Positions 3,120 to 38,890 of a stretch of DNA of 43,525 bases are shown in pieces. The notes under the pieces are model-generated. The model saw nothing but the letters and a program-made list of their open reading frames with translations. It had not been told where the DNA came from and ran no database searches. The position numbers and the translations under genes are program-made. The stretch spans positions 1 to 43,525 of the forward strand of contig JAQIBG010000432.1 of the NCBI GenBank assembly GCA_027859175.1. The letters run 5' to 3'. This DNA comes from Planctomycetota bacterium (GTDB lineage Bacteria > Planctomycetota > UBA11346). Each line of letters begins with the position of its first letter. The stretch's first letter is position 1.

Positions 3120-6100
3120 ATGTGGACCCGCAGTTTTGCACTTCTGACCTTATGCTCCAGTCTAGCCCTGGCCCTTGATGCCAAGCCCCGCGTGATTGAA
3201 ATCGCGCCGGTCACACCTGACACCATCCGCGTAGTCGTGATTCACGGTGAAGCTGCCAGCGGCGCCCTGGAGCCCTATGTTCCGCAAGCAGACGACATCC
3301 TGGAGGTAAAGGGCAAGACCCGCGTGGTCTACGCCCCCGACTACCGCATTCGCGGTCACTTGACCAATCACGGAGCCCAGGTCCTGTTCCGGCCGGTCGA
3401 CGTACTAGCCAAAGACAACTGGGATGCCGACCGTCTATTTGCGACGTCAAACGTGGCACTGAGCTCAAGCAACGACAGTGCCTTCTCGAGCCCCCATCAG
3501 CCCAGCGCGATCGCGCGCAAGAGCAAGGTCCACCACTTTCGCATGAACGCACTCGGCGCCGACGCAAACTGGCCGCCGCCATTTTCCGAACGCCACACGG
3601 CCTATCTCACATTTTCCACGGCACTCACTCCAGGCAAAACCTATCGCCTAGACCTCAGCGCAGCCGGATGCGGCATCCACGATTATCTCCACCAACCCCA
3701 CAACGTTGTCACCGAATCCGTTCACGTCACCCACCTCGGCTTTCGCCCCGATGACCCATCCAAACACGCCTACCTGAGCTTATGGCTCGGCACCGGAGGC
3801 GCCTATGACTTCAATGACCAACAAGCCTTCGAGTTGATCGACCACAACACCGGCAGCACTGTCTTCAGCGGCCAGGCCAGCCAGGTCCGCGCCGTCGATG
3901 GGCAAGACGGCTTCGGCGAAGTTCACACTGGAACCGAGGTCTTAGTGTGCGACTTCTCCTCCTTTGACACCCCCGGTACCTATCGCCTCTATGTACCCGG
4001 CTACGGCTGCTCCTACCCCTTCCAGATCGATGACAATGCCACCTGGCAAGTGGCCGCGCGCAGCGCGATCCGTGGCCTCTACCACCATCGCTCTGGGATT
4101 GCCCTAACCGCCCCCTACGCCAGCTGGGAGCGGCCACGAAACTTTCACCCCGATGATGGTGTCGACATCTTCCAGTGCACCACCACCTGGGCCGTGGCGC
4201 CAAGCTCTGACGAACAAACCGAGATCCACGCCGCACTCAATGCCAGTAAAACCAGCAGTACAATCGAGGCCTGGGGTGGCTACCACGATGCCGGCGACTG
4301 GGATCGGCGCCCGCAACACCTCGGCATTCCACGCTTGCTGCTGCAACTGTACGACATCAACCCCGGCTATTGGCAGCAACAGGATCTCAATCTTCCGCCC
4401 GATGGCAGCTTACCAGACCTTCTCTGCGAAGCGGTGTGGCTGGTCGATTTTTACCAGCGAATGCAACGCAATGATGGCGGCGTGCGCGGCATGATTGAGC
4501 TCGACCAAGAAGGCACGCAATGGCCCGATGCCAGCTTCACCAATAGCCTGACCGTCTTGGCAACCGATGCCGACCCAATGACCAGCTACCTGTTCGCCTC
4601 CGTTGCCGCTCAAGCAGCTCGCGTCATTGCGCCCTTCGACAGTGCGCGCGCAGCCGGCTACCAAACCAGCGCCGAGAACGCGATGGCCTGGGCCGAAGCT
4701 TGGCTGGCAAACAATAACGGCGCCGCTCTGCATCACGGCTACCGCGATGCACGCAATGCCGCTGCGCTCGAACTGTATCGGCTAACTGGCGCCACAAACT
4801 GGCACCAACTATTTCTCCAGACCACGGCTTTCGATGGCAGCAAAGAGCTCAAGACCCAAGTTTGGGACAGCCACGATCAAGCCTTCAACGCCTTGGAATA
4901 TTGGCTGGCAGCTGATCGCAGCCGAGATCAACAGGTCCTCGCGAATGTGACCACCGCCATCACCGCCAGCGGCGAAGAGTGGCTAGGATTCCGAGCTTTA
5001 TTTGGCTTTGGCAACACACGAAATCCCTACGCCCCTCCCGGCTGGGGAAACATCACCCTGCCGGCCGCGATTCCACTGGTCGGCGCCCACCTCGTCACCG
5101 ACGATGAACGCTACCTATCGGGCTTGATCGAAAGCGTCCAATACAGCCTCGGCGCTAACCCCGACAACCGCAGCTATGTCACAGGATTGGGCCACAATCA
5201 GCCCGAACTGCCCCTGCATATGGACTCGCTAACCATGGGCACCGCGCCGCCTGAAGGCATCGTCCTCTACGGCCCCCATCCCGGTTACGAGTGGTCACAA
5301 TATTTATGGGAAGATGCCTACGTTCCCGCCATTAACTCGTGGCCAGTTGGCGAACGCTTTGCTCACCTCGGCGGCGGCGGCGTACAGAGTAATGAGTACA
5401 CCGTTATGCAAGGCATGGGGCCAGGTGCTTTCCTGTGGGGGTATCTCGCGGCCCAGGGGCGTGACACCACGCCGGCAAATCGGCCACCAAAGGCTGAGTT
5501 CAGCAGCAGCAGCGATGATCTACGCGTCCAACTCGATGCTTCTGCCTCGTCTGATCCAGATGGCGACACGCTTAGCTATACCTGGAATTATGGCGATGGC
5601 GGCAGCGCTAGCGGCAAGACGGCAGACCACACCTATGCAGCCGCTGGCAGCTATACCATCACGCTAAACGTCAGCGATGGCGCCCTCAGCCACACCACCA
5701 GCAAAACCGTCACCGTCTCAGCAGCCGCGGCGCCATTGCTGCCTGCGCTAAGCGACCCGGGCAATCTCAAGGCCGGCTTACGCTACCGCAGTTTTATCGG
5801 CACTTGGAGCGCCCTGCCTGACTTTGCAAGCCTGAGCGAACACAGCAGCGGCATTGCCACCACCCTGGGCTTGGACCAGCGCCCTGCTGATGATAATTTT
5901 GCCCTGAGCTTCGACGGCTCTCTGTTGGCCCCCGCAGACGGCGTCTATCAGTTTACCCTCAGCAGTGACGACGGTAGCCGCCTATTCATTGATGGCGAAC
6001 TGGTGATTAATCACGACGGCCTGCACGGCGCCGACAGCAAGACCGGCAGCATCGGCCTAGCACAAGGCCTGCATGCAATCTCGGTCGATTACTTCGAGAA

Positions 6101-6332
6101 GTCCGGCGGCCAAGCTCTGACCGTGCAGTGGACGCCCCCCGGCGGCACCGCTGTCAGCATTCCGGCCGCAGCGCTATCCCATCCGGATACCGGTGACCAA
6201 GCCTACCAAGCGGCGGACGGCCTGGTGGTTATGGAAGCAGAAGCGGCCACTGGTGGTGCCGCTGGCCGTGGCGCCTACACCGGCACCACGCTGCCAACCG
6301 GGAGCGGCGGCCATGCCAACGACGCGTCGTAG
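3120..6332 (+). CDS. Secreted GH9 endoglucanase-type protein with PKD and PA14 domains, C-terminally truncated
   Basis: Secreted multidomain glycoside hydrolase family 9 protein. Signal peptide at 1-19 (TLCSSLALALDA). An N-terminal Ig-like region typical of GH9 (PHNVVTESVHVTHLGFRPDD... FDTPGTYRLYVPG) covers about 190-310. The (alpha/alpha)6 catalytic domain runs from about 325 to 780 with the hallmark GGYHDAGDWD at about 385-394, whose aspartates act as base, and SNEYTVMQG at about 757-765, carrying the likely acid Glu. A PKD domain follows (about 787-865, DASASSDPDGDTLSYTWNYGDG), then PA14 (about 880-1010). The final segment VVMEAEAATGG starts like a CBM6-type carbohydrate-binding domain but stops after about 35 residues, inside repeat DNA. 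GGAG before the ATG supports the start. Likely substrate is cellulose or a mixed-linkage beta-glucan. Confidence 0.88.
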   Translation: MWTRSFALLTLCSSLALALDAKPRVIEIAPVTPDTIRVVVIHGEAASGALEPYVPQADDILEVKGKTRVVYAPDYRIRGHLTNHGAQVLFRPVDVLAKDNWDADRLFATSNVALSSSNDSAFSSPHQPSAIARKSKVHHFRMNALGADANWPPPFSERHTAYLTFSTALTPGKTYRLDLSAAGCGIHDYLHQPHNVVTESVHVTHLGFRPDDPSKHAYLSLWLGTGGAYDFNDQQAFELIDHNTGSTVFSGQASQVRAVDGQDGFGEVHTGTEVLVCDFSSFDTPGTYRLYVPGYGCSYPFQIDDNATWQVAARSAIRGLYHHRSGIALTAPYASWERPRNFHPDDGVDIFQCTTTWAVAPSSDEQTEIHAALNASKTSSTIEAWGGYHDAGDWDRRPQHLGIPRLLLQLYDINPGYWQQQDLNLPPDGSLPDLLCEAVWLVDFYQRMQRNDGGVRGMIELDQEGTQWPDASFTNSLTVLATDADPMTSYLFASVAAQAARVIAPFDSARAAGYQTSAENAMAWAEAWLANNNGAALHHGYRDARNAAALELYRLTGATNWHQLFLQTTAFDGSKELKTQVWDSHDQAFNALEYWLAADRSRDQQVLANVTTAITASGEEWLGFRALFGFGNTRNPYAPPGWGNITLPAAIPLVGAHLVTDDERYLSGLIESVQYSLGANPDNRSYVTGLGHNQPELPLHMDSLTMGTAPPEGIVLYGPHPGYEWSQYLWEDAYVPAINSWPVGERFAHLGGGGVQSNEYTVMQGMGPGAFLWGYLAAQGRDTTPANRPPKAEFSSSSDDLRVQLDASASSDPDGDTLSYTWNYGDGGSASGKTADHTYAAAGSYTITLNVSDGALSHTTSKTVTVSAAAAPLLPALSDPGNLKAGLRYRSFIGTWSALPDFASLSEHSSGIATTLGLDQRPADDNFALSFDGSLLAPADGVYQFTLSSDDGSRLFIDGELVINHDGLHGADSKTGSIGLAQGLHAISVDYFEKSGGQALTVQWTPPGGTAVSIPAAALSHPDTGDQAYQAADGLVVMEAEAATGGAAGRGAYTGTTLPTGSGGHANDAS

Positions 6333-6643
6333 GCGCATACCACGAACAAGGAACATCGCGGGCTAAAGCCCACGCCACGGGTTGGATGCCGGCAGGTGTT
6401 GGTTGCGGTTGGTGCTTAGCGTGGCGTGGGCTTTAGCCCGCGATCTTCCCGGTGCGCGCTTCGCGCGTTGGATGCCGGCAGGTGCTCGCGCGCGTCAGGC
6501 CCTGGCGTACCACGAACAAGGAACATCGCGGGCTAAAGCCCACGCCACGGGTTGGAGCCGGCAGGTGCTCGCGCGCGTCTGGCCCTGGCGTACCACGCCG
6601 CCGGTCGGGAGCGGCGACCGTGCCTACGACGCGCCGTAGGCGC
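6287..6643. repeat. Imperfect direct/inverted repeat array with GGGCTAAAGCCC palindromes
   Basis: A segment of about 60 bases (TACCACGAACAAGGAACATC...) at about 6338-6398 recurs almost exactly at 6509-6567; each carries GCGGGCTAAAGCCCACGCC. An inverted copy, GGCGTGGGCTTTAGCCCGC, lies at 6423-6441. A second unit, at 6287-6336 (...GGGAGCGGCGGCCATGCC...), recurs at about 6594-6643 with scattered changes and borders the array on both sides. GATGCCGGCAGGTG also repeats (6385-6398, 6471-6484). This resembles a REP/BIME-like or nested miniature element. The left outer unit encodes the last residues and stop codon of the GH9 protein. The rest of 6333-6674 holds no gene. Confidence 0.8.
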
Positions 6644-6674
6644 GCACCAGGAACCAGAAACCAAGAACCAACCC

Positions 6675-25747: not shown

Positions 25748-28700
25748 TCAGCGCGAAGACGTAGCGAGCGGCAGGGCTTCAGGAATCGCATAGCGCAAAT
25801 GACCACTCACTGGCAGGCGCCCATCCGCCCCCAACGGAACCCGGCGGCCAAAGAAGTCCAGGCAGACAGCCGAACCCAAAATGGCCGGCGCCGCGATATC
25901 CTCAGGCACAGCAGCCGTCGACCAGTAGGCCACCACCGGATGGCCGTCGGCCCGGTCAAATCGGAATACGTGCACGTCCTTGTCATCGGGGGCGAGGTCC
26001 TTGCCGAATTGGGCATTGCCCAACACGCGGTCCCAGGTCGCAATCATCGGGACGGTCACCAGCGGCCGACCGTCAAATCCAAACAGCAACGAAAAGTTTT
26101 GATGCCCTGGGTATTCCCTGGGAACGGCATTATAAAAATAATAGCGCTGCATACCAGACGCCTGACGTGCGATCAAGCCCTGCGCCAGGATCATTGCGTC
26201 GGCGAAACCAGCAACGCCATCAGCCAAATCCTTGATGCCCGATTCCGAGTCATAGATCGGCAGGTCCGCTCGTCCTAACTCGGGCAGCGTCCTCGCCAGA
26301 TAATCTTGGGTAAAGGAGAATGCCGCCAGCCCCTGCCCGGCGAAGTTGGCCCCGCCGTAGGCATGGTAGCTGATCGCGTCGCATGAATCAGCAATGCCAT
26401 GCCGCTGCATGCTGCGCACGGTAAACGAAGGATGCCCTGCACAGGCCCCGATGACTACTGTCGCGTCTGGGTCCCCCTGCTTGATGATCGGATACGCAAT
26501 CCGCACCAGATCGGCATAAATCTCTTCGAGACTCCGTGGATCGGTGGGTGCCTTTTGCATCCAATGCCCATTGGGCTCATTCCAAATCTCATAATAATCT
26601 ACCTGATCACCACAGGCGGCAACCACTGCGCGGATATACGCTGCCCAATCGGCCAGGTCATTCGGTGGAAACTTCTGTGCTGCATGCCAGCCTTGACGCA
26701 TGTTTTGCGGCGCGCTGGAGGCCCAGTCTGGCGTGCCACTGAGCACCAGCATCGGCTCGATGCCGGCCGCGCGGTACACCTCGAGGTCTGACACTGGAAA
26801 GGCAAAGGGATCGCCTTGGTTGGGCTGGGCCGTGGCCCAATCCGCATCCCACAAGCGGACGTGCTTGATTCCGAGCGAGGAGATCAGTTCGACCTGCTGG
26901 CGCGTATTCAGCCGACCAAGATGCGTCCCAAGAAAGCCATTGCGCTGCATGGTAGGGTCAGCCGGCAGGATCACTGCCAAGTCATCGCCCACGACCGCTA
27001 CCGTTTCCCCTTGGGCAACAGCACTGACATGAAACCAGCCTAGCGGCAAGGCATCCAGGGCCACATCCACCGTGTGCGGCCAGGGCCCAATCCCCTTCTG
27101 CACCGGCACCTGCAACACGCTGCTGCCCTGTTCATCGCATACGTCCAAGGTGAGGGTCGTTCCATCCGACAAGCCAGCGGTCACCACCTGAGCGAGCACC
27201 GGCTCACCGAGAACTGCAACCGCCTCGCACTGTGACGATCCCACCCCAAGCCTGATTCCAACTTCCGGCACCGCTGCTGTATCCACCGTTCCCTCGCAAA
27301 ACGCGACCGAACTGATCGTAGCAGCTGCATGCCCCCGATGACGCAAACGGAGACCGAAGTGCTCCTCGGGCCGCGCCACCATGCCCTGCTCCGGGGTCAG
27401 CAAACGGTAGACGTGCTCGGCCACACCATCGACAAAGGTCAGCGGAAACACCTCGGTGTCGACCGCGGCCATGCCAGGACGAATCAGAATGGCATCGATA
27501 TCACCGGCCTCAGCCGCACCCTGAACCCTGATCGTGTAGCTGCGCCCATACTGGCACACCAGCGGCGAGGCACTGGTCAACAAGGAGCGCTCGCCAGCAG
27601 GCAACTGCAATCCAGCGTCCCCAAGCGCAACCTGCAGATTGCGGGCCTGCGGCGCCGTTGCCCCAGCCTCTCGCTTCGGATAGCGCAAGGTCCAATTCAG
27701 GTCGTCCAGTTGGAAGGCGCCATTTCGCAGCAACTCACCGCGCTCGGGCGTGGTCACCGCGGGGAGCTCGAAGGTCGGCAGCTCGCTGATTGTGACCTCG
27801 CGTATCTGGAAACGCCCAACACCACTGAAGGTCAACTGGAGACGGTGCTCCCCGCCGCGCGCGCGAACCTGCACCGAGTGCACAGCCCAGTCTCGATGCA
27901 GCGGCCATTGAATCGGACGGAAATCGCGTGAGTCCATCCGGGCTCCGACTTGCTCAACTTGGCCAACAATACGCGCCATGATATCGAAGCGGTACACCAT
28001 TCCTGGCCGCATCGACACCTTGTCGCGCAGAAACAGCCGAGCGCGACTTTGCACATCCACCGATAGCACCGATCCCGCGGTCTGGTCTTCGAGGGCGAGA
28101 ATGCCCGTGGCATCACCCTTGAGCCTGTCGGTCCACACAGAATCCGCCGTTGTCGCTAAATCGGCGCTGGCCTGTGACACCAGCAGCCCCCGCGCCGGGC
28201 CCGCTTCAGGGGCGCGCATTACACCGTCGGCAGCACCACGCTGACCCGCCTGGGCCGCCGCTTCCTGGATCGCCGCACCCGCTGCCTTGGCCCCAGTAAA
28301 CACCGTCAAGTGTTTGAATTCGGCCTCGGTTGCGCCACGCACCGCCACGCCGACGTAGTCAATGCTGTCCAAAGGAATTTTCAGATCGCGCTCAACCGGA
28401 TCGCAGCCCGCAACCACCAAACTTACCCGCTTGGCGTCGCAATCGATGCGCATCGTGATATCGAACGGCTGATCCACATTCGGCAGAGCAAACCGCACGG
28501 CCGGGTTGTGTTGGTCTACCGCTTCCTTGTCCAGCCCGCTGTATTGGATAATTGAATTGCGCCCGATACCGGTCCACACCCCGCCAACAACCAAACTGTC
28601 GGGGCTCGCACTCGAGCCAAAGCTCACAAACATCAGACGATGACGACCCTCCACGTGCTGAGCCGACACCCGGATCGCAACAACCTTCTCAGGGGCAGCC

Positions 28701-28948
28701 AACTGCCGTCGCAACACGCACGGCGTCTTGGGAATCGCGCCAGGACCGGCAATCCGCATTCGCTCCTCACCCACCGTGGCAGATCCACCGTTGACCAGGA
28801 CATAATCCCCAATCACTTCGGTCACCACGCCATCAGCACCCCCGACAGCACCCTCGACAGCACCCTCGACAGCACCCAGGATATGGCCCGCAGGCAGTGC
28901 CCATACACACAGGACAAATATCATCGACAGGAGTTGATACCGCATCAT
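25748..28948 (-). CDS. Giant secreted clan GH-A enzyme, GH39-like
   Basis: A 1066-residue secreted protein. Signal peptide at 1-26 (MIFVLCVWALPAGHILG), followed by a low-complexity GAVEGAVEGAVGGADG stretch. Residues 40-215 look like a LamG/DUF1080-type sandwich, with further jelly-roll modules to about 600. The C-terminal TIM barrel at about 690-960 contains YYEIWNEPNGHW near 790, the acid/base motif of clan GH-A, and DLPIYDSESGIKD near 900 with the likely nucleophile Glu. The pattern (GIKHVRLWD at strand start, AISYHAYGG) is closest to GH39 xylosidase/iduronidase-like enzymes, though GH5-type relatives are possible. AAAGG precedes the double ATG. It follows a pseudopilin gene by 69 bases with no hairpin, so the two are probably one transcript. 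Confidence 0.82.
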   Translation of the reverse strand: MMRYQLLSMIFVLCVWALPAGHILGAVEGAVEGAVGGADGVVTEVIGDYVLVNGGSATVGEERMRIAGPGAIPKTPCVLRRQLAAPEKVVAIRVSAQHVEGRHRLMFVSFGSSASPDSLVVGGVWTGIGRNSIIQYSGLDKEAVDQHNPAVRFALPNVDQPFDITMRIDCDAKRVSLVVAGCDPVERDLKIPLDSIDYVGVAVRGATEAEFKHLTVFTGAKAAGAAIQEAAAQAGQRGAADGVMRAPEAGPARGLLVSQASADLATTADSVWTDRLKGDATGILALEDQTAGSVLSVDVQSRARLFLRDKVSMRPGMVYRFDIMARIVGQVEQVGARMDSRDFRPIQWPLHRDWAVHSVQVRARGGEHRLQLTFSGVGRFQIREVTISELPTFELPAVTTPERGELLRNGAFQLDDLNWTLRYPKREAGATAPQARNLQVALGDAGLQLPAGERSLLTSASPLVCQYGRSYTIRVQGAAEAGDIDAILIRPGMAAVDTEVFPLTFVDGVAEHVYRLLTPEQGMVARPEEHFGLRLRHRGHAAATISSVAFCEGTVDTAAVPEVGIRLGVGSSQCEAVAVLGEPVLAQVVTAGLSDGTTLTLDVCDEQGSSVLQVPVQKGIGPWPHTVDVALDALPLGWFHVSAVAQGETVAVVGDDLAVILPADPTMQRNGFLGTHLGRLNTRQQVELISSLGIKHVRLWDADWATAQPNQGDPFAFPVSDLEVYRAAGIEPMLVLSGTPDWASSAPQNMRQGWHAAQKFPPNDLADWAAYIRAVVAACGDQVDYYEIWNEPNGHWMQKAPTDPRSLEEIYADLVRIAYPIIKQGDPDATVVIGACAGHPSFTVRSMQRHGIADSCDAISYHAYGGANFAGQGLAAFSFTQDYLARTLPELGRADLPIYDSESGIKDLADGVAGFADAMILAQGLIARQASGMQRYYFYNAVPREYPGHQNFSLLFGFDGRPLVTVPMIATWDRVLGNAQFGKDLAPDDKDVHVFRFDRADGHPVVAYWSTAAVPEDIAAPAILGSAVCLDFFGRRVPLGADGRLPVSGHLRYAIPEALPLATSSR
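28834..28877 (-). repeat. 12-bp tandem repeat in GH39-like gene
   Basis: The unit CAGCACCCTCGA occurs three times and partly a fourth (28834-28845 with one change, 28846-28857, 28858-28869, 28870-28877). It encodes the GAVE repeat just after the signal peptide. Copy number can change without shifting the frame. Confidence 0.8.
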
Positions 28949-38499: not shown

Positions 38500-38890
38500 C
38501 CCGGTAGTCCGTCCGTGATAATAGTGGTCAACGTGCTCGGGCAGGGTGCGCCGGAGCGTATCCGTTGAGAACGCAATGATGGATCGTCCAACCTCTCGGC
38601 GGGCGGTGCCGATAAAGCGTTCGATGGAGGCGCCGCACGTGGGGCTTTGGGGTGGAGTAATTGCGATCTCGCACCCGATTGACCGGAAGCACTCCTTGGC
38701 CGAATCCTGGAAGCACTCCTTGGCCGAATCGGTGAAGAGTAGGGTCGCGGTCCATGATCACCCAAGTGGTTTCGGCGACGACATCATCCTCGTAGGCGGT
38801 GCGGTTCCGGCAGCACCTTGTGACCTATTCGCCGTTGGCATCATCGGTCACGCCCATGAGGCGGACCTCGAGTAAAGTCAGCACAGAGAA
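38500..38890 (-). pseudogene. Broken IS transposase (integrase core, rve)
   Basis: Reading the minus strand in two frames gives GVTDDANGE-stop-VT, then VIMDRDP, then after a one-base shift FTDSAKECFRSIGCEIAITPP, SIERFIGTARREVGRSIIAFSTDTLRRTLPEHVDHYYHGR. This is the second half of a DDE integrase core as in IS3/IS481-type transposases (D-R-D, the TPP...AER helix with the catalytic Glu, HYN.HRPH end). Damage includes a TAG where Trp is expected, a +1 shift and a 24-base tandem duplication. Flanks of 38341-38499 and 38891-39108 hold no other gene I can support and may be further degraded IS sequence. No terminal inverted repeats were found. Confidence 0.68.
38687..38730. repeat. 24-bp tandem duplication inside transposase remnant
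   Basis: AAGCACTCCTTGGCCGAATC at 38687-38706 is repeated at 38711-38730 with a 4-base spacer, giving a 24-base period. In the transposase frame it duplicates DSAKECF. Confidence 0.85.

Follow-up and report, generated by a model that had tools for sequence, protein, structure and literature searches.

Repeat-encoded C-terminus and stop codon of a GH9 glycoside hydrolase gene, with apparent loss of most of a domain, in a Planctomycetota bacterium

REP and ERIC elements are already known to provide C-termini and TAG stops to bacterial genes (PMC3733652, PMC2759123). REPs sit after genes and between convergent ORFs, and their ends often supply a TAG stop (Di Nocera et al., 2013, PMC3733652). ERIC/RU-1 of enterobacteria is a 127-bp intergenic palindrome found in 3´-end fusions where the normal stop is gone and the C-terminus comes from the repeat, as in the ECA3499 amidase (Delihas, 2007, PMC2759123). 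Here we describe a GH9 gene of an uncultured Planctomycetota lineage whose last 45 coding bases and TAG are repeat DNA, which encodes the 15 residues TTLPTGSGGHANDAS. The window, that is, the whole stretch of 43,525 nt that was analysed, is all of contig G000:C10 in a MAG of 5.6 Mb and 495 contigs (87.7% complete). Two repeat families, denoted A and B, are present at the 3´ end of the gene, where the following features were mapped.

3120..6332, plus strand: GH9 glycoside hydrolase gene, 1070 aa (ORF list), with CelD_N (aa 198-295), GH9 (aa 312-742), PKD (aa 788-866) and PA14 (aa 920-1015) domains (Pfam, all above the curated cut-offs)
6198..6284, plus strand: probable remnant of a GH115_C-like (PF17829) domain, aa 1027-1055, with ~140 residues missing (profile and blastp)
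6285..6354, plus strand: right half of repeat A (model 67-128; profile match 6286-6347, 25.8 bits, E 1.7e-6 in the loci searched), 81% identical to 6592-6661
6330..6332, plus strand: GH9 stop TAG, within the variable loop of the right-hand hairpin of repeat A, where most copies have GCGCCGNAGGCGC
6355..6445, no strand assigned: inverted pair of B palindromes, REPIN-like, stem ~25 bp, loop ~40 nt (fold -64.5 kcal/mol, z -7.8; B sites 6358-6379 on plus, 6420-6441 on minus)
6446..6515, plus strand: left half of repeat A (model 3-72), 55.0 bits
6528..6549, plus strand: third B palindrome, inside the repeated 52-nt block 6505-6556 (direct-repeat and B-site searches)
6548..6655, plus strand: repeat A, model 21-129 with the right tip GCGCGCACCAGGAACC, 78.2 bits
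6675..7397, minus strand: convergent gene for a type-IV-pilin-like N_methyl/DUF1559 protein (PF07963 and PF07596, Pfam; gene call)

The assignment of the enzyme to GH9 follows from a Pfam match to PF00759 over the cut-off (E 4.2e-27, aa 312-742), and its sequence is that of a predicted secreted, cellulose-type enzyme. Because the GH9, PKD and PA14 parts are intact, the truncated protein is probably still made and secreted, minus its last module. The closest GH9 relative is 51% identical over residues 12-782 and has neither PKD nor PA14, and no full-length GH9-PKD-PA14-CBM homologue was found in 58 related genomes or in a collection of genome contigs.

The first-pass annotation had noted that a repeat supplies the C-terminus and stop of the protein, and this is the case, with the frame 3120-6332 ending in an A fragment that contains the TAG. 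Its nested direct and inverted repeats were also recovered, as direct pairs of 41-70 nt and inverted pairs of 45-56 nt. The longest direct pair (6285-6354 and 6592-6661, 70 nt, 81% identity) has the end of the GH9 gene inside it, while two others are 98% identical (6335-6386 and 6505-6556, 52 nt; 6474-6514 and 6557-6597, 41 nt) and, together with the inverted pairs, occupy 6324-6597. The mosaic downstream, with a B doublet, a second A copy and duplications at 83-nt and 170-nt spacing, indicates a site prone to rearrangement. A 129-nt profile of repeat A, derived from 17 canonical copies at other places in the genome, has matches to three segments here, which argues that the array is no chance product. 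The window contains two further, simpler repeats. One, a 12-bp tandem repeat of 3.7 copies (28834-28877), lies where the minus-strand gene 25748-28948 begins and yields EGAV repeats just past a signal-peptide-like start; the other is a 24-bp tandem repeat of ~2 copies at 38685-38737.

Other copies of the array units, which the first reading had suggested looking for, are present in the genome and fall into the two families. Using 6285-6661 as the genome query gave 47 matches, mostly to one unit. Element A is a 129-bp palindrome with tips GGTTCCTGGTGCGCGC...GCGCGCACCAGGAACC; its tip has 102 exact matches in the genome (49 + 53) and none in the 58 relatives, in which the full A consensus gave matches of about 24-32 nt only, and A was found in no other named genome. 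Being short, dispersed and intergenic, with 16-bp inverted tips, A qualifies as an ERIC/MITE-like element. The heptamer GGTTCCT usually flanks A, with 0-5 extra copies per side, and the number is often unequal on the two sides of one copy (e.g. L007:1481-1609 and L064:6732-6860). At the provisional ends of ~48 A copies, direct flank repeats showed no excess beyond the heptamers and no target-site duplication was detected. The one copy that was folded is stable (z -4.4 on one strand, -4.8 on the other), but a single pair alone had changed on both sides, which gives no evidence of a selected RNA, and Rfam returned only matches far below the gathering score. The search for intrinsic terminators gave no more than two sites resembling the consensus, both of them minus-strand and located at B palindromes.

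The position of A relative to genes was examined in 62 sampled copies, mostly picked by similarity to the window's own copies, with genes called by a home-made codon-usage (codon log-odds) script trained on the window. None of the 54 near-full-length copies overlaps a called gene, and the two overlaps in the sample both involve fragments; this runs against the proposal, made from the window's sequence, that the repeat is being recruited as coding sequence. For genes adjoining the near-full copies, the median distance is 25 nt to a 3´ end (n=71, 43 within 30 nt) and 100 nt to a 5´ end (n=30, one within 30 nt). Convergent flanks are found at 21 of 47 pairs with A as against 16 of 121 pairs without it (Fisher p 4e-5), and divergent pairs are depleted around A (p 0.02). 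A therefore has a habit of sitting near gene ends, and in the window the stop of the convergent pilin-like gene is 19 nt from the end of repeat A.

Units of the GGGCTAAAGCCC type form a second, REP-like family B, separate from A, with the palindrome GCGGGCT[A/G]AAGCCC and a constant flank, ACGCCACG. The 22-nt unit has 59 sites within one mismatch in the genome and none in relatives, and GCGGGCTAAAGCCC with up to one mismatch has 65 genome sites against 3 for the reversed control. B has the attributes of a REP, namely a palindrome of 20-40 nt in many copies, many of them in inverted pairs; it falls outside the GTAG/CGTC REP superfamilies, the conserved flank being ACGCCACG. Regular arrays of B palindromes at ~117 bp spacing were also seen (G000:C179:14-260 and C373:12619-12874; L139 and L137). 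With respect to the REP-associated tyrosine transposase suggested at the outset, three RAYT-like Y1_Tnp genes do exist in the genome (L059, L060 and L061, on G000:C270, C22 and C153), but no link to A or B was found: the 2.3-3.5 kb stretches read around them hold neither an A copy nor a B palindrome, so that the arrangement of a RAYT gene flanked by the same repeats, as in REPIN/RAYT systems, is not seen. A and B are confined to one genome among the 59 searched and are possible markers for this species.

The sequence that follows PA14 in the GH9 protein is DQAYQAADGLVVMEAEAATGGAAGRGAYTG, after which comes the repeat-encoded TTLPTGSGGHANDAS. The first-pass annotation took VVMEAEA as the opening of a CBM6-like domain; a domain does appear to start approximately there, but the CBM6 label fares less well, since CBM_6 (PF03422) gave no Pfam match in the tail at E up to 10 and the starts of GH115_C-like domains are closer, as in L150 (AADGLLAVEAEAAHQRLPGGRGHAW against AADGLVVMEAEAATGGAAGRGAY in GH9). 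With a home-made profile built from 10 GH115_C-like domains of the same bacterial family, residues 1027-1055 match positions 4-34 of 176, and the 58-aa tail scores 12.2 bits compared with 9.1 for the best of 2000 shuffles. The remnant is short and its score weak, 5.2 bits for the GH115_C-like domain alone when the whole protein is scanned. Against a small database, blastp of the tail aligned 35 aa with a GH115_C-like domain at 51% (E 0.022), and Pfam found no match in the 44-aa tail, which stays below the PF17829 cut-off. These comparisons weakly suggest that the tail is GH115_C-like, short of membership in GH115_C, and that the lost module is better read as GH115_C-like (PF17829) than as CBM6. 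VVMEAE was also searched in 23 genomes of the family and 392 of the phylum, and in the 29 loci that were read no match was linked to PA14.

As had been proposed, the domain appears cut. The domain-like match stops at base 6284 (residue 1055), homology to A runs from 6285 on, and the rest of the domain is absent downstream of GH9 in all frames. Relocation of the remainder was considered and set aside, none being found elsewhere in the genome, where GH115_C-like domains occur only on contigs C106 and C119. The best of these (L144/L146, G000:C106:1730-2231) is split over two frames by a frameshift, either real or a sequencing error.

We consider it probable, though well short of certain, that the GH9 gene lost most of a C-terminal GH115_C-like domain by a deletion that joined the middle of the domain to the middle of A. 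The ancestral gene would have had the domain after PA14, followed by an intergenic A and the convergent pilin-like gene. The deletion would have fused codon 1055, ~30 residues into the domain, to the middle of A, at the cost of ~140 residues, of the stop that the gene had before and of that A copy's left half, and the remaining right half, being in frame, would have contributed 15 codons and the TAG. The rest of the mosaic may have arisen, then or earlier, from B palindromes and from tandem duplications of short segments (98% identical). We prefer the deletion because a single event then accounts for the junction, for the half of A that is missing and for the absent part of the domain, and a deletion from the domain into A is plausible given that the usual place of A is directly behind a stop codon. 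The sequences themselves show which repeat is present, that it encodes the tail and stop, that A across the genome keeps to gene ends and that the domain's remainder is absent; a full domain at an earlier stage, its deletion and the succession of steps are what we infer, the ancestral architecture in particular, as no GH9-PKD-PA14-GH115_C orthologue was found among the 58 related genomes.

A second gene of this genome speaks for a different course of events, in which the GH9 gene never had a full domain after PA14, ended at about residue 1040-1055, and gained the 15-residue tail by running into the repeat upon loss of its stop. In a URO-D-like frame at L005 826-1377 (contig G000:C393), heptamers together with the left half of another A copy encode the last ~28 residues and the stop. 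Of its 183 residues, the Pfam match takes in none beyond 144, alignment with homologues of the family reaches residue ~155, and from ~150 to 181 the protein agrees with same-frame translations of many A copies. This resembles the loss of a stop with no domain lost. GH9 and this gene are the only two found to end in A; the long open frames over full A copies that were inspected look antisense or have A at their start, not at their end. Many PA14 proteins of the family end right after PA14, which also fits stop loss in GH9. However, the residues after PA14 resemble a domain start, and read-through alone does not account for an A copy cut mid-element with its left half absent. Stop loss thus strikes us as an unlikely origin for the GH9 tail.

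Direct insertion of a mobile A, or of an A/B composite, into the coding sequence of the domain was the original proposal for the loss of the module. Both families are dispersed and multi-copy, and the genome carries Y1_Tnp genes, but insertion of a whole element is a poor fit: neither the left half of A, with its tip at the junction, nor the remainder of the domain is present. With none of the 54 full A copies inside called genes, and no direct target-site duplication detected, we regard insertion as improbable. It is more doubtful still that repeat copies were mis-joined to GH9 during assembly; some contigs of this 495-contig MAG do break near A copies (e.g. L012 and L014), yet the internal repeats span no more than 41-70 nt, with 81-98% identity, and the intergenic surroundings follow the arrangement usual for A. 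A selected function of the repeat-encoded tail has the open frame in its favour and nothing further, and is hardly credible given that the GH9 and L005 tails differ, derive from different halves of A, and are the only two cases among 62 copies.

A broader proposal is decidedly a long shot: A would be a miniature element of a new kind, its tips growing and shrinking by GGTTCCT heptamers (0-5 per side), that settles just past stops, and deletions into it would time and again shorten or lengthen the C-termini of secreted enzymes encoded next to it. If this were true, this species would be losing protein modules through A. On the narrower reading, this uncultured lineage illustrates a route by which intergenic palindromes can become protein C-termini when the flanking gene is trimmed or its stop is lost, and it serves as a warning that, where annotation places the end of a gene of this sort, the DNA is that of a repeat.

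Collectively, A and B are new elements of known kinds, and the GH9 fusion one more instance of a known phenomenon, here with probable domain loss. Like the GTAG- and CGTC-tagged REPs, they are dispersed palindromes after genes with units paired in inverted orientation, and the layout of A matches that described for REPs in other bacteria; they differ in that A is 129 bp and in that B has the flank ACGCCACG/CGTGGCGT with no terminal GTAG or CGTC tag (PMC3733652). The inverted B doublets with hairpin potential, and the presence of Y1_Tnp genes, recall the REPINs and their RAYT transposases (Bertels and Rainey, 2011, PMC3116915), whereas the three Y1_Tnp genes here are without B or A in the stretches read. 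Rickettsia palindromic elements, cited in both PMC2759123 and PMC3733652, are likewise palindromic repeats that are translated into protein; they are inserted within genes, while here a fragment forms the gene end only. ERIC/RU-1 resembles A in kind, as an intergenic palindromic element of near size that makes gene-end fusions, and the L005 case is like that of RU-1 in the ECA3499 amidase (PMC2759123). A differs from ERIC/RU-1 in that its tips carry 0-5 extra GGTTCCT heptamers per side and in that, at the GH9 gene, a domain has apparently been lost as well.
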